Shown here in pieces: positions 1-37,874 of a stretch of DNA of 37,874 bases. Origin of the DNA: a virus. Both the position numbers and the translations under genes were made by a program. The stretch spans positions 1 to 37,874 of IMG/VR virus record IMGVR_UViG_3300047509_000142. One strand, written 5' to 3'. Each line of letters opens with the position of its first letter. The first letter of the stretch is position 1. The notes beneath the pieces are model-generated. The model was not told the DNA's origin. It was given only the letters and a program-made list of their open reading frames with translations, and made no database searches.

Positions 1-136
1 ACACGCGGGCGTACACGCGGGCGTACACGCGGGCGTACACGCGGTCGGACACGCGGTCGGACACGCGGGCGTACACGCGGGCGGACACGCGGGCGTACAC
101 GCGGGCGTCCACGCGGGCGTACACGCGGGCGGACAC
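1..136. repeat. 12-bp tandem repeat array, left end
   Basis: Eleven full units of MCACGCGGKCGK plus a partial one run from base 1 without interruption. Only three positions vary: the first base (A or C), base 9 (G or T) and base 12 (T or G). On the minus strand these fall in two adjacent codons, giving Ser/Tyr/Asp and Ala/Asp between invariant Val (GTG) and Arg (CGC) codons. The array continues in register at the right end of the window. Confidence 0.97.
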
Positions 137-157
137 GCCTGATCCCAGCTGTTGCAT
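1..157 (-). CDS. Tetrapeptide-repeat protein 1, N-terminal part (continues at 37874)
   Basis: No function is known. The ATG (157-155) overlaps the TGA of the DUF6745-like gene as TGATG, so translation is probably coupled to it. The product begins MQQLGSG and then runs as V-x-[A/D]-R units, where x is Ser, Tyr or Asp; eleven full units lie before the window edge. The frame stays open at base 1 and is in phase with the frame entering at 37874. If the molecule is circular the gene ends at 37621 and encodes 136 residues: a 7-residue head, 31 repeat units and the tail VRRLQ. The head resembles the MKQLG heads of the two following ORFs, which supports coding on this strand rather than on the open plus-strand frames. 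There is no signal peptide or membrane segment. The protein would be rich in Arg and Val. The number of units may be affected by assembly. Confidence 0.7.
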   Translation of the reverse strand, partial: MQQLGSGVSARVYARVDARVYARVSARVYARVSDRVSDRVYARVYARVYARV

Positions 158-1579: not shown

Positions 1580-3064
1580 TCAGGCCGCCATCTCATCCGG
1601 CGAATACAGGCCCATCGTCGCGCCCGGTGCGATGACGCGACCGAGCTGAACCCCACCCGTCTTGCGCAGCATCTCGTCGGGGCGCTTGTCCCAATTGCTG
1701 TTTGGCTTCACCAGGCCAGCCTTCTTCGCCTGGTCGATGGTGTAGCGCAGCTTGATCGGTGGGCGCCCCGCCGCCGCGCCTTGTTTGCTCTGCCCCTCCC
1801 ATTCCGCGTACGTCGCGTCACCGCCGACGAATTCGAGGTATTCGCACTCAGGCGACGCCTTGGCGCGCGCGATGATGAAGTGCGCGTGTGGGCATGGCTT
1901 CCCTTCTACAATGTGAAACAGGTCGAGACTCGTGAGCGCCCCGAGCCCCATCTCGCGGCCTCGAATGATGACGGCGAAGATGGCTTCGGCGGACGGGAAG
2001 CGCGAGTAGAGCCGCGAGTTGTACAGGTCCTGCGCGAGCTTGTACGCGAGCCCGAGCGTCGTCGGTTCCAGGGCGAGGTCCCAGCTTGGCGGCGCCAGGG
2101 CCGCATGCTTCACCTGTACGAGCTCGGCTCTCTCTGTCCTGCGCTCTGGCGCGGGCGCCGCGTCTCCCTGCGCAGCCGGCGGGGGCTCGCTTGGCGTCGT
2201 CGATGCCCCTGGCTCGGACTTGGGAGCGGGCTCGAAATCAGCGTCGTCGAATCCGATGGAATTGGTGCTAGTGGTCAACGGTTTGATCTCCCTGGTCTCG
2301 TACAGCTCAGCAAAATTGATCGGCACGTCGTAGCGTAGCGACACGAGCTTGACGGTCGTCGGCAACCACGCGAGCGCTTCTTTTAGCTTCACGTCGATAG
2401 TCAGCGTCGCCACCGGTTTCGCGCGAGGCTTCACGACTTCGAGCATTACCTGCTCTAGCGTGACGTACTCTTCCAGTAGCTTTGCCGCGCCCCTGGGGCC
2501 GACGCCTTGCACTCCGCGCACGTTGTCGCTCGAGTCGCCGCAGATGGCGAGATAATCGCGCATCTGCTCAGGCCAGACGCCGAACTTCGCGCGCACGCCG
2601 TCTCGCGTCAGTAGCTCGCCAGTCTTCGGGCTCGCCCACGACACGCCGTACTGCACGAGCTGGGTCAAATCCTTGTCGGCACTCGCGACAACAACCTCGT
2701 GCCCAGCGGCTACTGCGGCACGGCAGGCCGTAGCGAGCACGTCATCCGCCTCGAAGCCTTCCGCCTCCCACAGCAAGAGCCCGTCCTTCGCCAGCGTATC
2801 CTTGGCCAGGCGCATCTGCTCGAAAGCGGCGGAATCGCGCGGCGGGCGGTGCGCCTTGTAGCTCGGCTCCAGCTCTTTGCGGAAATTCGACGGCGAATCG
2901 CAGCACACCGCGACCAGCGAATACGGGTAGCCCTCGCGCAGGCGACGCACCTGGTTGACCGAGCGGTCGTGCGCCGCGCTCATCTCGTCCTTGACCGACG
3001 AAAACCACGCGGGCCAGAAAATGGATCCCATATCAATCAGCAGGACAGGCCGTTGCGTGATCAT
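1580..3064 (-). CDS. 5'-3' exonuclease fused to RecT-like ssDNA-annealing domain
   Basis: 494 residues. Residues 1-258 are a PolA/FEN-type 5'-3' exonuclease: the acidic residues are present at D11, D56, the E105-A-D107-D108 cluster, D130/D132 and the GDSSDN motif at 176-181, followed by the GVQGVGPRGAAKLL helix-hairpin-helix. Residues about 258-315 are a Pro/Ala/Glu-rich linker. Residues about 318-494 resemble RecT-family annealing proteins: IFAVIIRGREMGLGALTSL, IVEGKP, CEYLEF, ATYAEW, RYTIDQAKKAGLV, a W..RPDEMLRK segment and MGLYSPDEM near the end. One uninterrupted frame spans both. Known families with these roles resect double strands and anneal the resulting single strands, as lambda Exo and Beta do from two genes. 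Start ATG overlaps the upstream stop (ATGA). Exonuclease part is secure; the annealase call rests on motif memory. Confidence 0.8.
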   Translation of the reverse strand: MITQRPVLLIDMGSIFWPAWFSSVKDEMSAAHDRSVNQVRRLREGYPYSLVAVCCDSPSNFRKELEPSYKAHRPPRDSAAFEQMRLAKDTLAKDGLLLWEAEGFEADDVLATACRAAVAAGHEVVVASADKDLTQLVQYGVSWASPKTGELLTRDGVRAKFGVWPEQMRDYLAICGDSSDNVRGVQGVGPRGAAKLLEEYVTLEQVMLEVVKPRAKPVATLTIDVKLKEALAWLPTTVKLVSLRYDVPINFAELYETREIKPLTTSTNSIGFDDADFEPAPKSEPGASTTPSEPPPAAQGDAAPAPERRTERAELVQVKHAALAPPSWDLALEPTTLGLAYKLAQDLYNSRLYSRFPSAEAIFAVIIRGREMGLGALTSLDLFHIVEGKPCPHAHFIIARAKASPECEYLEFVGGDATYAEWEGQSKQGAAAGRPPIKLRYTIDQAKKAGLVKPNSNWDKRPDEMLRKTGGVQLGRVIAPGATMGLYSPDEMAA

Positions 3065-13009: not shown

Positions 13010-13366
13010 GTGTGCCGTGCGCTTTTCAGCATAGTATCTCACGCCCGCGCACGTGTTGCTGGGCTCGCGCTGGTTGCGCTCGGCTGCTCTGCACAGGTCG
13101 AATCTGCCGTACATGACGTGGGCTCGGATCTGTCGGGCCGCTGCGGCTGGTACCAGGACACGGATAGCCCGCTCGCCGGCGACGCAGCGTGCCACGTGTA
13201 TGCCGTTGAGGCGGCTACCGGTGGCGGCTTGCTCCCGGCTGGCGCTGACCCATGCTCGATGCCGCCGGTTGACGTGCTGCGCGTCGAGGCTGGCGACATC
13301 CACAGCGACTGGCATCGGTTCGGGAAAATCCCGACCATCGACGACGAGCCGTGCTCAGCGCCGTAG
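13010..13366 (+). CDS. Predicted lipoprotein
   Basis: 118 residues from a GTG preceded by AAGGGGG; a TTG start at 12950 is also possible. The hydrophobic stretch VAGLALVALGC has a lipobox-like end (L-V-A-L-G-C), and the mature part contains four more Cys and no recognised domain. Last gene of the rightward early operon, convergent with the terminase gene (12-bp overlap). A surface lipoprotein here could act in superinfection exclusion, but this is inference. Confidence 0.55.
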   Translation: MCRALFSIVSHARARVAGLALVALGCSAQVESAVHDVGSDLSGRCGWYQDTDSPLAGDAACHVYAVEAATGGGLLPAGADPCSMPPVDVLRVEAGDIHSDWHRFGKIPTIDDEPCSAP

Positions 13367-14797
13367 CGCCCCGAGCTTTTTCGCGCGGCCCTCGGCTCGC
13401 TTTTTGATCGCGGCGCGCGTGGCTTTAGCTTCGGCGTCCCACCACTCCTTCGTCCCTGGCTTCGGTGGCTCGAGTTCTGGCTGATACGCGGTGCGCGCCG
13501 CTCGTACGCCGTAAAGCATCGAGTCGGCGCAGTCGTTCTCGAAGCGGGGGTCCTCAGCAACGCGGCCCGGCCCCCACTGGAGCAAGCACAGCTCGTCGAG
13601 TAGCTGGCCGCACTCGCGCGCAACGATTTTGACGGTGCCGCTACGGAGCTCGCCCGCGACGATTTCTTGGAACGCGCGCTTCTTCGTCTTTTCGGCCGCG
13701 ATGATGCCGATGCCGTAGCGCTGGCGCATCTCCTCGGCGTAGCCTTTGCCGAGGCCGCCCTCGTCGCCGATGATTTGCAGCCCCGCGCCGTACTCCACGC
13801 GCAGGCGCTCCACGTGCGCCGCTGCTGCGCTCGGGATGAGCCCGGCAAGCTTCCACGCCTTGAGCACCCAAACCTCGGGGAATGCCGTCCTGATGCCCAG
13901 AATCGTGAACGCCGTGGCGTTGCCGAAGCCGAAGTCCAGCGAGAGAATGTAGCGCAGGCCGTCCGGCACTTGGTCCGGCGTGACGGCGTTCAGGCCGGCG
14001 CTGTATGGGTAGACCAGCGCGCCCTCGTCGCGCACCCATTGGCCAAGGTACTCACGGCGGAACGTGGCGCTGTTCCGGTCGAGCCCGTACGTCTCGCAGA
14101 AAAGCTTGACCTCGGCTTCCGCGTTCGGGATGTGCGGGTTGTCGTAGATGGTCCAGTGGTGCGTCGGCCACTGCGGCGAGCCGTCGCCCGTGCTCGCCTC
14201 GTAGAACAGCCCGGCAGGTATTGGGCTCGGGGTGCCCGCGAGCAGCAGGTGACCAGCCTTGTCGATGAGCGCCGGCTCAAAGACGTCAGTGACCAGCTCG
14301 CGCAGGAACGGGTATTCTTGAGCCTCGTCGATCGCGACGCGCTTGTACTTCGAGCCGCGGAACTTGCCGCCCTCGCTCTGGTCTTTGCAGCCTGCAAGCC
14401 AGATGCTGTGCCGCGTGAGCCCGACCACGAGCAGCAGTTGGCCGTCGACCTCGCGGAGCTTGAGCTGTAGCTCCGGGTAGCGCTGGGCGAAGTAGTCGAT
14501 CGCCGGCTGCAAAATGCGCCGGGCATCGCCCTTGCTGCGCGCAACGTAGACGCTGAGGCCGCCGGGGTCCTCCAGCGCGCCGTCTATCAGCCACGCCAGG
14601 ATGCCGTGAGACTTGCCGGCGCGGCGCGAGCAGAGCGCGACCTTGCGCCGCGCCTTGTCCTCGACGAAGCGCCGCTGCTTCGGATGCAGGTCACCCAGAA
14701 ACCGCCGGGCTGCGCGTACGTCTCGGTCCGCACGAATGCGGCGCTCGAGCTCGCCGCGCAACTCCGGCGGCAACTGGGCGAACAGGCGCGCGTTCAC
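13355..14797 (-). CDS. Terminase large subunit
   Basis: 480 residues from GTG. ATPase: Q-adenine region LHPKQRRFVED, Walker A CSRRAGKS (56-63), Walker B VAIDEAQE (154-161), coupling AGTPSP. Nuclease: SLDFGFG near 290, GDEGG in the middle and DPRFENDCADSMLYG near 430, giving the conserved acidic residues. Cuts and pumps DNA into the procapsid. Last gene of a minus-strand packaging operon, opposite to the structural genes. Its end overlaps the lipoprotein gene by 12 bp. Confidence 0.95.
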   Translation of the reverse strand: MNARLFAQLPPELRGELERRIRADRDVRAARRFLGDLHPKQRRFVEDKARRKVALCSRRAGKSHGILAWLIDGALEDPGGLSVYVARSKGDARRILQPAIDYFAQRYPELQLKLREVDGQLLLVVGLTRHSIWLAGCKDQSEGGKFRGSKYKRVAIDEAQEYPFLRELVTDVFEPALIDKAGHLLLAGTPSPIPAGLFYEASTGDGSPQWPTHHWTIYDNPHIPNAEAEVKLFCETYGLDRNSATFRREYLGQWVRDEGALVYPYSAGLNAVTPDQVPDGLRYILSLDFGFGNATAFTILGIRTAFPEVWVLKAWKLAGLIPSAAAAHVERLRVEYGAGLQIIGDEGGLGKGYAEEMRQRYGIGIIAAEKTKKRAFQEIVAGELRSGTVKIVARECGQLLDELCLLQWGPGRVAEDPRFENDCADSMLYGVRAARTAYQPELEPPKPGTKEWWDAEAKATRAAIKKRAEGRAKKLGALRR

Positions 14798-34392: not shown

Positions 34393-35850
34393 TTGGCGCT
34401 TTCCGCTCAGCAATATTTGAGCATGCGCGCCCTGTTTCGCAGTGCGCTCGCAGCAAACTCGTCTCTAGCCGCCAACCCGAGCGACGGCGAAGTGCTGGGC
34501 TTCTTCGCTCAGCTATTGGCAGAGGCCAACGGCGCCACTCTATTGCCGGACACGCGGCAGAACGCGATCGGCTTCGCGTTTCGGGGGCTACTGAGCGGCA
34601 ACATTGCGGGCGTATCGAACCCGAGCGACGCAGATGTGTTGTCGTTCTGGACGCAGCTCGCGTCCGACGCGAACGGCGCAGCGGCGCTTACGAGCGTGCG
34701 GTACCTAGCTCTCAAGTCGACATTGTGCAGCGCGATCGCGCGCAACTACCCGGCCGTCGCGAATCCCGCTCTTCAGGATTTGCTCGCGTATTTCACGGCC
34801 GTTGCCGGTGTACTGGTGTCCGGGGTTACCACGTTCGGCGCTGCGCAAAACTACCTCTGGCGCGACACCAAAACATTCACGGTGACCGGAGCGGGCGCGA
34901 ATCAATACGTGGCGCACGACATCGGCTCGCGCCTCGCTTTCTGGACTACGGCCACGAGCCTCACAATCGGCGCTGTCGCTACATCAGGTAACACGGCCTA
35001 CGGCGATTGCGTTGACGTGCGTGTAAGCGGGGCCTACTTCACCACGGCTCAGTTCCCAGATTCAGCGGGTTCGTCGATTGGCGTGCGTGCGCCCGTCACG
35101 ATCGCGTTGCCAGCTGGGCTCAAGTTAGTGGAGCTGATTGAGCAGGGGTGCTTCGTCATAGACATCAACGTTCCGTGCGCGCTGCTGCCGGCACCCGTGC
35201 CGCAGCGAAGCTTTACCGTGATCGGCGCCAGCGGTTCATGGGGCTATTTCGCTTGGGATGAAAGCAACGTCACGCCGGGCATGTTCGTCTTTGACCTCTG
35301 CTGGCGCGGTCGCGTTGCCTGGAGCGGCCGATTCGACGCGGTCTACACGGTGGCCAACAACAGCTTCGGGCTTACGTCCTACGGCGTCGTCGACCAAGCG
35401 AGCGCGATTGCCTTCGTTGCGAGCACCATCGCTCCGCGCATGACCGGCACGCTCGAGCAAACGGTTTGGCTCGAATTCGGCGCTGGCGAGTGCCTGAACT
35501 CAGCGACGACGCCCACCGTTTTCGCACAGAATCTCGGCTACCTCATCGACGCGATTCACGCCGCTTTCCCGCGCGCGCGCGTCTACGTCCAGACGCCGAT
35601 TTTTATCGTGACGCCAAGCGAGGCCACGGCCAACGGGCTCGGCTTCATCATGCAGAACTACCGCGACGTGATTCCGCCGCTGGCAACCGGTCGCCCCTAC
35701 GTGCGCATCGCCGACGGGCTGCAAATGGGCAGCAACGCTGGAGACATCAGCGGCGACGGCAAGCACGAAATCCCTGGCTTCCCGGTCACGCATATCGCGG
35801 GACACGTGAAGGCATTCAACTACGCATATCCGCTGCTAGCAGCAGCTTGA
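34393..35850 (+). CDS. Tail fibre/spike with SGNH-hydrolase-like domain
   Basis: 485 residues from TTG. Residues 1-140 are paralogous to the N-terminus of the previous protein (QQYLSMRALFRSALAANSSL, NPSDGEVLGFF, NPSDADVLSFW). A beta-rich part (about 150-270) and then an SGNH-like fold: block I FTVIGASGSWGYFAW (S280 or S282 as nucleophile), LEFGAGECLN where GxND is usual, FPRARVYVQTPIF, and a late D..H motif in GDGKHEIPGFPVTHIAGH. Probably removes acyl groups from the host surface polysaccharide. Two adjacent fibre genes with the same base and different heads. Confidence 0.65.
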   Translation: MALSAQQYLSMRALFRSALAANSSLAANPSDGEVLGFFAQLLAEANGATLLPDTRQNAIGFAFRGLLSGNIAGVSNPSDADVLSFWTQLASDANGAAALTSVRYLALKSTLCSAIARNYPAVANPALQDLLAYFTAVAGVLVSGVTTFGAAQNYLWRDTKTFTVTGAGANQYVAHDIGSRLAFWTTATSLTIGAVATSGNTAYGDCVDVRVSGAYFTTAQFPDSAGSSIGVRAPVTIALPAGLKLVELIEQGCFVIDINVPCALLPAPVPQRSFTVIGASGSWGYFAWDESNVTPGMFVFDLCWRGRVAWSGRFDAVYTVANNSFGLTSYGVVDQASAIAFVASTIAPRMTGTLEQTVWLEFGAGECLNSATTPTVFAQNLGYLIDAIHAAFPRARVYVQTPIFIVTPSEATANGLGFIMQNYRDVIPPLATGRPYVRIADGLQMGSNAGDISGDGKHEIPGFPVTHIAGHVKAFNYAYPLLAAA

Positions 35851-37074: not shown

Positions 37075-37294
37075 CGCTTATAGCGCCGAGGATGCCGAGC
37101 GTCACGCTCGCGAGCTCGCCGAGTACGACGACCGCGACGAGGTCACCGCCAACATCAACGTCAACCTAGACTCCCTACACGACAGCGACCCGCCGGCAAA
37201 GCGAGTGCGGGCGGGTCTTGTCGCGGTCGGCAGCGGCATCGGGATTGCGTTGCTTACCGGGGTCGCGGCACTGCTACAGCACTGCGGGCATTGA
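37058..37294 (+). CDS. Small membrane protein, last late gene
   Basis: 78 residues. Acidic, helical N-terminus (SAEDAERHARELAEYDDRDE) and one C-terminal membrane segment (AGLVAVGSGIGIALLTGVAALL). GGGAG 5 nt upstream supports the ATG at 37058. May be a holin-related or antiholin protein. Its 3' end overlaps the third repeat ORF on the other strand by 41 bp. Confidence 0.6.
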   Translation: MAPRSDAYSAEDAERHARELAEYDDRDEVTANINVNLDSLHDSDPPAKRVRAGLVAVGSGIGIALLTGVAALLQHCGH

Positions 37295-37487
37295 GATCCC
37301 GCACGCGGGCGTCCACGCGGTCGTACACGCGGTCGGACACGCGGTCGGACACGCGGGCGTACACGCGGTCGGACACGCGGTCGTACACGCGGGCGTACAC
37401 GCGGTCGGACACGCGGTCGGACACGCGGGCGTACACGCGGTCGGACACGCGGGCGGACACGCGGGCGGACACGCCTAGCTGCTTCAT
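37254..37487 (-). CDS. Tetrapeptide-repeat protein 3
   Basis: 77 residues. AGGAGG (37493-37498) lies 5 nt before the ATG, which overlaps the stop of repeat protein 2 as ATGA. Head MKQLG, then fourteen V-x-[A/D]-R units, and a non-repeat tail (VRDLNARSAVAVPRPR) that runs antisense into the end of the late operon. Unknown function. Convergent with the late genes. Part of the DUF6745-linked array. Confidence 0.7.
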   Translation of the reverse strand: MKQLGVSARVSARVSDRVYARVSDRVSDRVYARVYDRVSDRVYARVSDRVSDRVYDRVDARVRDLNARSAVAVPRPR

Positions 37488-37493
37488 TGCAGC
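37478..37493 (-). promoter_or_regulatory. Hairpin presenting the start codon of repeat ORF 3
   Basis: In minus-strand mRNA GCUGC and GCAGC pair around the loop AAUGAA, which holds the AUG and the overlapping UGA of repeat ORF 2. The AGGAGG site touches the outer end of the stem. An identical element lies 137 bp away at 37615-37630. Confidence 0.5.
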
Positions 37494-37624
37494 CTCCTAA
37501 CGCGGGCGTCCACGCGGGCGGACACGCGGTCGTACACGCGGGCGTCCACGCGGTCGGACACGCGGGCGTACACGCGGTCGGACACGCGGGCGGACACGCG
37601 GTCGGACACGCCTAGCTGCTTCAT
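37484..37624 (-). CDS. Tetrapeptide-repeat protein 2
   Basis: 46 residues: head MKQLG, nine V-x-[A/D]-R units, tail VRRLQ. The ATG (37624) overlaps the stop of repeat protein 1 as ATGA, and AGGAGG (37630-37635) lies 5 nt before it. Its own tail codons AGG-AGG serve as ribosome site for the next ORF, whose ATG again overlaps its stop. Head and boundary are identical to those of repeat protein 3, so one probably arose from the other by the 137-bp duplication. Function unknown. Confidence 0.65.
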   Translation of the reverse strand: MKQLGVSDRVSARVSDRVYARVSDRVDARVYDRVSARVDARVRRLQ

Positions 37625-37630
37625 TGCAGC
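37615..37630 (-). promoter_or_regulatory. Hairpin presenting the start codon of repeat ORF 2
   Basis: Exact copy of the 37478-37493 element, at the junction of repeat ORFs 1 and 2. Confidence 0.5.
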
Positions 37631-37874
37631 CTCCTAACGCGGGCGTCCACGCGGGCGGACACGCGGTCGTACACGCGGGCGTCCACGCGGTCGTACACGC
37701 GGGCGTACACGCGGTCGTACACGCGGGCGGACACGCGGGCGGACACGCGGTCGGACACGCGGGCGTCCACGCGGTCGTACACGCGGGCGTACACGCGGTC
37801 GGACACGCGGTCGGACACGCGGGCGTACACGCGGGCGGACACGCGGGCGTACACGCGGGCGTCCACGCGGGCGT
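37621..37874 (-). CDS. Tetrapeptide-repeat protein 1, C-terminal part (continued from base 1)
   Basis: The frame enters at 37874 in phase with the ORF that starts at base 157 and ends with VDARVRRLQ and a TGA at 37623-37621. The last codons AGG-AGG-CTG form the ribosome site of repeat protein 2. In this part the units mix all five observed forms (SA, SD, YA, YD, DA). Inclusion as one gene with 1-157 depends on the window being circular. Confidence 0.65.
   Translation of the reverse strand, partial: ARVDARVYARVSARVYARVSDRVSDRVYARVYDRVDARVSDRVSARVSARVYDRVYARVYDRVDARVYDRVSARVDARVRRLQ

Follow-up and report, generated by a model that had tools for sequence, protein, structure and literature searches.

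What is a row of small genes that encode little but a four-residue repeat doing behind a DUF6745-like gene on a phage genome? The question is raised by the IMG/VR virus record IMGVR_UViG_3300047509_000142, all 37,874 bases of which were analysed and are referred to here as the window.

The phage and its array genes

A 12-bp repeat occupies both ends of the record (Tandem Repeats Finder: 37302-37874 and 1-138). As the first and last bases lie in a repeat that runs in phase from 37874 into 1, we read the record as a phage genome, circular or permuted, that the assembler cut inside the repeat. When the rest of the window was codon-shuffled 100 times, no copy contained a period-12 segment. Matches to an integrase and a CI-like repressor fit a temperate phage, as the first-pass annotation of this DNA had proposed, and a 5'-3' exonuclease-RecT gene, portal, head and terminase are also encoded. 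The array module ends the leftward early region, behind the exonuclease-RecT gene, with the rightward late genes ending opposite it. In the phage collection, DNA searches with the window as query gave no match. The exonuclease and the RecT annealing domain are fused in a single ORF (1580-3064, minus strand), and the gene for the terminase large subunit (13355-14797, minus strand) lies on the strand opposite the portal and head genes, as it does in G010 and G017, two sister phages.

On the minus strand the HGD-type gene is followed by the DUF6745-like gene and then by array ORFs 1, 2 and 3 (Table 1). Read across the record join, the three array ORFs (136, 46 and 77 aa) together hold 54 VxyR units as assembled, copy number at contig ends being uncertain. 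This bears out the earlier claim of at least three tetrapeptide-repeat ORFs in a row after a DUF6745-like gene and its HGD neighbour. Repeat ORFs do lie at 37254-37874, where they had been placed, but the MQQLGSG head assigned to that interval is outside it, at position 157.

Table 1 Features of the array module in the window (the translation of ORF1 runs across the record ends)
Feature	Position	Strand	Remarks
Array ORF1, 5' part	1..157	(-)	MQQLGSG head and VxyR units; continues at 37874
DUF6745-like gene (P0001), 307 aa	157..1080	(-)	PF20530, 27.3 bits; no internal array
HGD-type small gene, 107 aa	1091..1414	(-)	HMM match, E 8.5e-14 (HMM built from DUF6745-neighbour genes, this gene being one of its six seeds)
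Array ORF3	37254..37487	(-)	MKQLG, 14 VxyR units, non-repeat tail RDLNARSAVAVPRPR, stop; 77 aa
Array ORF2	37484..37624	(-)	MKQLG, 9 VxyR units, VRRLQ, stop; 46 aa
Shine-Dalgarno sequence of ORF3	37488..37501	(-)	GTTAGGAGGCTGCA
Array ORF1, 3' part	37621..37874	(-)	ends ..VYDRVSARVDARVRRLQ, stop; stop overlaps next start, ATGA
Shine-Dalgarno sequence of ORF2	37625..37638	(-)	GTTAGGAGGCTGCA; doubles as coding sequence of the ORF1 tail

ORF1 has the form MQQLGSG(VxyR)31..VRRLQ, and its ATG overlaps the stop of the DUF6745-like gene as TGATG. ORF2 and ORF3 each overlap the preceding ORF as ATGA, and each start is preceded by the same motif, GTTAGGAGGCTGCA-ATG. As judged from the sequence, the array ORFs are translationally coupled to one another and to the DUF6745 gene, and they are presumably translated.

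Only five types of unit are found: 15 VYAR, 14 VSDR, 10 VSAR, 8 VDAR and 7 VYDR. The formula V-(S/Y/D)-(A/D)-R given earlier holds for all of them, but one of the combinations it allows, VDDR, never occurs. Nine of the 12 nucleotides are invariant in 54/54 units of the window; variation is confined to nucleotides 4 (T/G), 5 (A/C) and 8 (A/C), and is non-synonymous at all three. The repeat has a period of four residues and not the five of pentapeptide-repeat proteins, and its predicted fold is a helix and not their beta-helix. AlphaFold modelling of ORF3 with six relatives gave a single helix (residues 4-71, mean pLDDT 80). Cas2-like matches to ORF3 were set aside as low-complexity noise.

The DUF6745 protein and its partner

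By Pfam score alone the membership of P0001 in DUF6745 is thin, the match (27.3 bits, residues 135-220) being just over the gathering cut-off of 27, but profile comparison makes the proposed assignment secure. When P0001 and its homologue in phage G001 (42% identical, 48.9 bits) were compared by hhalign with a profile of 30 phage DUF6745 proteins, the match had a probability of 99.7% (E 3e-27, 266 columns) and ran from the N-terminal 'LTxEQ' as far as the C-terminal domain, gaps taking the place of the array columns. A close homologue, L027, scores 48.9 bits, and close relatives of P0001 were present at only three loci in the viral contigs. P0001 is a divergent member of PF20530, and it differs from the family in that its chain has no array: the N-terminal SP motif continues directly into the C-terminal domain, no period-4 or period-3 array was found within it, and the arrays sit in separate ORFs.

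An HGD-type partner lies within 1.5 kb of DUF6745 at 59 of the 80 viral loci and 71 of the 80 bacterial ones, and at 1091-1414 in the window. This neighbour is a regularity observed in the present analysis and stands outside Pfam's definition of DUF6745. The window HGD-type gene had no match in Pfam or NCBIfam. Neither a described function for DUF6745 nor a paper naming it was found in the open-access literature searched, and PADLOC gave no credible match to the module.

An AlphaFold model of an array-bearing homologue (L030, mean pLDDT 82.8) has confident N- and C-terminal domains; the array between them is poorly determined and partly helical at low confidence. The fold had no confident match in the PDB (best Foldseek E 0.37; VIA Z under 3), and its BFVD matches were mainly other DUF6745 or uncharacterised phage proteins. 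Matches to the solved structures of IpgB2 and P230 involved the repeat region only and were rejected as low-complexity noise.

Internal arrays in phage DUF6745 proteins

A scan of viral contigs gave at least 242 stretches with DUF6745 relatives, of which the best 80 were surveyed. An in-frame array was present in 73 of these 80 loci (68 of period 4, five of period 3), placed between the N-terminal 'SP' motif or domain and the DUF6745 domain, and in 8 of the 80 from bacteria (Fisher p 2e-27, without correction for relatedness). The array therefore belongs essentially to the phage members of the family. The four-residue run that the first-pass annotation placed inside DUF6745 proteins is thus real and very common, but in phages and not, as stated there, in bacteria; the survey of neighbours that it had proposed did find repeats inside or beside homologues.

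The units of the viral arrays are of many kinds: xASV/xDSV, xAQV/xDQV, xGQL/xDQL, xSSL, xANL/xDNL, AAxS and xAAT/xDAT. Twenty of the 80 viral ORFs are cut at a contig edge. The period-3 arrays, (A/D)-A-(R/W/M/L..), were seen in the DUF6745 ORFs L075, L077, L085, L097 and L107. One contig (L032/L034) and L085 have at least two DUF6745 genes, every one of them with an array to itself, as if several specificities were carried.

Array-less DUF6745 with an HGD-type neighbour is common in actinobacterial chromosomes (L111-L190), and because of this the pair may serve some function in the host and have been taken over from there by phages. A strict rule that a protein with no internal array has an array outside it was rejected: all five array-less viral records G004-G007 and G009 contradict it, having no convincing outside array, and the pairing of core and array is therefore not obligatory.

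Separate, multiplied arrays in three lineages

Three lineages have array ORFs that stand alone and are multiplied, namely the window, the phages G001/G002 and the locus L098, and all three have an array-less DUF6745. As the window and G001 were noticed through their arrays, the frequency of this form cannot be estimated from them. G001/G002 were found by the VxyR pattern alone, the DUF6745 gene being seen later; a relaxed VxyR pattern was discarded as too permissive, since its 119 stretches were mostly other G+C-rich repeats. G001/G002 have a run of array ORFs of the form MTRLGS(VxyR)nVQGGAT, interrupted by contig ends, in which the start, GGGAGGTGCAAC-GTG, overlaps the preceding stop. An array-less DUF6745 and the HGD gene are in the G001/G002 genome, and in G001 the arrays do not adjoin DUF6745. 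The G001 arrays (L017 and L014, the ends of G001) lie upstream of a terminase-like gene, an isolated array ORF is found elsewhere (L015 247-465), and the last ORF of the run retains the MTRL head on a non-repetitive body (MTRLMDSLELRRLALEAEC..). L098 belongs to an A+T-rich phage, in which array-less DUF6745 and the HGD gene are followed by seven ORFs of the form MTLSEEQIQPV(xNQV)n..VQE, with the stop mostly seven bases ahead of the next ATG. Here the whole arrangement is located away from contig ends.

The sister phage G010 is 87%, 89% and 84% identical to the window phage in portal, head and terminase, and its DUF6745 has an internal xSQL array, with the HGD gene beside it. A second sister, G017, had no match to the module, which is therefore accessory. 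So one phage group shows the module absent, fused or split. 'Split' is used as the name of a form; the change could have been a split or a fusion. The earlier proposal that the repeat was split off from an internal array and multiplied fits the G010 array and the multiplied ORFs of the two other lineages, but the direction that it suggested does not follow from them. As array and core are on different polypeptides in the split form, what the array does could be examined through the gain, loss or exchange of arrays with the core untouched. Array genes are easily missed, because assemblers often break inside these repeats.

Variation within the arrays

Codon positions were tallied in 64 arrays (1782 units, counts not corrected for relatedness). 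Change in the variable codons affected 29% of units at position 1, 25.5% at position 2 and 7.3% at position 3. Change at positions 1 and 2 exceeded that at position 3 in 59 arrays and the opposite was seen in 2 (61 informative, p 1.6e-15). Synonymous change in the constant codons was 85/3353. In L046 and L047, 540 nt of the DUF6745 C-terminus match at 99.8% identity and the arrays are scrambled; the same pattern is seen in L039 and L042, at 94% C-terminal identity. These are the only informative close pairs, and in them the array is the fast-changing part of the protein.

Variation that is restricted to particular codon positions in a phage protein recalls diversity-generating retroelements. 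These, however, have one variable region and a reverse transcriptase, whereas a tandem array without reverse transcriptase is found here. Targeted mutagenesis of this type was considered and rejected: the variable codons of G001 look A-derived (NNC/GNC), but reverse transcriptase (PF00078) had no match in G000, G001 or G002, and the L002 array, xGQL/xDQL, in which the Q position is fixed, also disfavours it.

Comparison with known phage repeats

Phage tetrapeptide arrays, and one phenotype for them, are already known. Gp54 of the mycobacteriophage Tweety, grouped with Che8 gp57 and PMC gp51, contains AAxy tetrapeptides in which x and y vary and third codon positions are invariant, and three relatives have 48, 26 and 15 units (PMC2884959). 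Two reviews (PMC9262239, PMC8549241), through which the result is taken here, describe mutants of Tweety that get past the prophage defences of Phrann or MichelleMyBell and have more or fewer units, and report the authors' reading of this change as counter-defence tuning. The first-pass statement that no described function is known needs correction to this extent, a related array having a role described in those reviews.

The Tweety and window arrays are alike in their 12-bp units, in their two constant and two variable residues, in the non-synonymous variation and in third codon positions that do not vary; in both cases unit number varies among close relatives and the gene is a non-structural accessory gene of a temperate phage. 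They differ in that the AAxy units lie within one chain and not in several ORFs, and in that, as the reviews have it, the role was shown genetically for gp54 and not here. Outside the repeat, BLASTP and hhalign gave no similarity between gp54 and the DUF6745 flanks, and no DUF6745 domain was found in Tweety. The role of gp54 is therefore used as an analogy, not as evidence of membership. The Tweety authors compared gp54 with VR2 of bbp36 in the Bordetella phage BMP-1, which is likewise a variable-number repeat in a non-essential phage gene, but with a 24-bp element (PMC2884959).

No description of DUF6745 arrays or of tandem stand-alone array ORFs was found in the open-access papers searched. 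Those papers likewise gave nothing on the link to DUF6745, its scale or the split, multiplied form. A type of array known from one case in mycobacteriophages, with a counter-defence phenotype that can be tuned, appears to be part of a far larger class. At least 242 viral stretches encode DUF6745 relatives, and of the best 80 about nine in ten carry an array; they have in common a module of HGD gene and DUF6745, in which the array is, time and again, either internal or encoded by genes of its own.

Possible function

The best explanation, to which a probability of about one half is given, is an accessory module of HGD partner, DUF6745 core and hypervariable array that likely serves counter-defence. 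In most phages the array is built into the DUF6745 protein, probably as a helical rod; in the window it lies apart from the core, on three overlapping, translationally coupled ORFs, and one core would presumably work in trans with several different arrays. The V..R frame would stay fixed while two residues per unit and the number of units vary, slippage and recombination shuffling the units and selection maintaining their diversity. Aimed or spaced by its array, the core would block a host or prophage defence factor, and altered unit number or order would retune it, as in the genetics of Tweety gp54. By this analogy counter-defence is the most likely role of the module, and the locus has the look of a fast-changing module, widespread among phages, in an arms race. 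Several points count against this explanation: we know of no partner, host or defence system for DUF6745, PADLOC gave no credible match, gp54 has no DUF6745 domain, the G001 arrays lie apart from the DUF6745 gene, and five viral records have an array-less DUF6745 and no convincing outside array. In a more speculative form of the idea, which we think improbable, the free arrays are interchangeable helical specificity subunits, with two variable residues per unit, loaded in trans on one core; if so, a phage could field several recognition arrays together and retune them by recombination with the core unduplicated.

The arrays might instead be neutral low-complexity spacers, freely slipping helical linkers in which variation is only tolerated and of which the free ORFs are by-products. 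In favour of this are the diversity of units (xASV, xDQL, xSSL, xAAT, VxyR and even a period of 3), which looks as though any long helical repeat would do, the helix predicted for ORF3 (at low confidence inside the fused protein) and the occurrence of array-less homologues. Neutral drift, however, predicts that third positions change at least as often as the others, and 59 of the 61 informative arrays show the opposite; retention of arrays in 73 of 80 phage homologues, their recurrence as separate ORFs with start-stop overlap or close spacing in three lineages and, as reviewed, the phenotype of repeat number in Tweety (PMC8549241) also make a neutral spacer unlikely. A quite unlikely role is that of a prophage-expressed defence or exclusion system, in which DUF6745 and the arrays attack or exclude other phages and the arrays recognise variable targets. 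The module is found in temperate phages, is accessory among sister phages and occurs without arrays in bacterial chromosomes, all of which would suit such a system, but its genes lie in the leftward recombination-gene region and not with lysogeny genes, PADLOC gave no match, and the sole functional precedent sits on the counter-defence side.

It is very unlikely that the 12-bp repeats act as DNA, as sites for protein binding, recombination or packaging, with the ORFs accidental. The G+C-rich 12-mers do keep other frames open too, and a CGCGTG core is conserved in two phages; on the other hand, starts, overlaps, heads and tails recur, homologues carry the array inside a protein, variation tracks codon positions, and unrelated phages, one of them with an A+T-rich genome, have unrelated 12-mers. 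That the assembler lengthened or made up the repeat at the record ends is hardly credible as the source of the arrays. Both ends of the record do fall in the repeat, and a contig edge truncates 20 of the 80 viral DUF6745 ORFs; but one array ORF is set off from the next by unique heads, tails and Shine-Dalgarno boxes, and L098 has the same architecture away from contig ends. The accessory counter-defence module is preferred to these four readings.

Other arrays

Several further arrays were seen during the search. A stand-alone ORF of G010 (L343 8666-8884, which is G010 34665-34883) encodes a dipeptide array, MLPIGYGSGDGDGDGYG.., of G followed by Y, S or D, and comes directly after a small gene (VVVVDRGWIFAGD..). 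A similar pair is found in L053 (10375-10944), in which the small gene resembles DUF6948 (16.9 bits, below the cut-off of 27). Could these pairs be a second variable array split from its core? G(Y/S/D) dipeptide arrays also occur in the viral contigs L223 (12704-13019), L239 (5855-6173) and L218 (9760-10070); in L223 and L239 the array is followed by a common domain, LHATxxPxKWKGERxWIVAL, without a Pfam match. In L246 (5620-5990) a phage protein of another kind (CPVIAAVVRGWND..) ends at its C-terminus in an AA(W/R/E/V)N array; this resembles the AAxy repeat of Tweety but not DUF6745.
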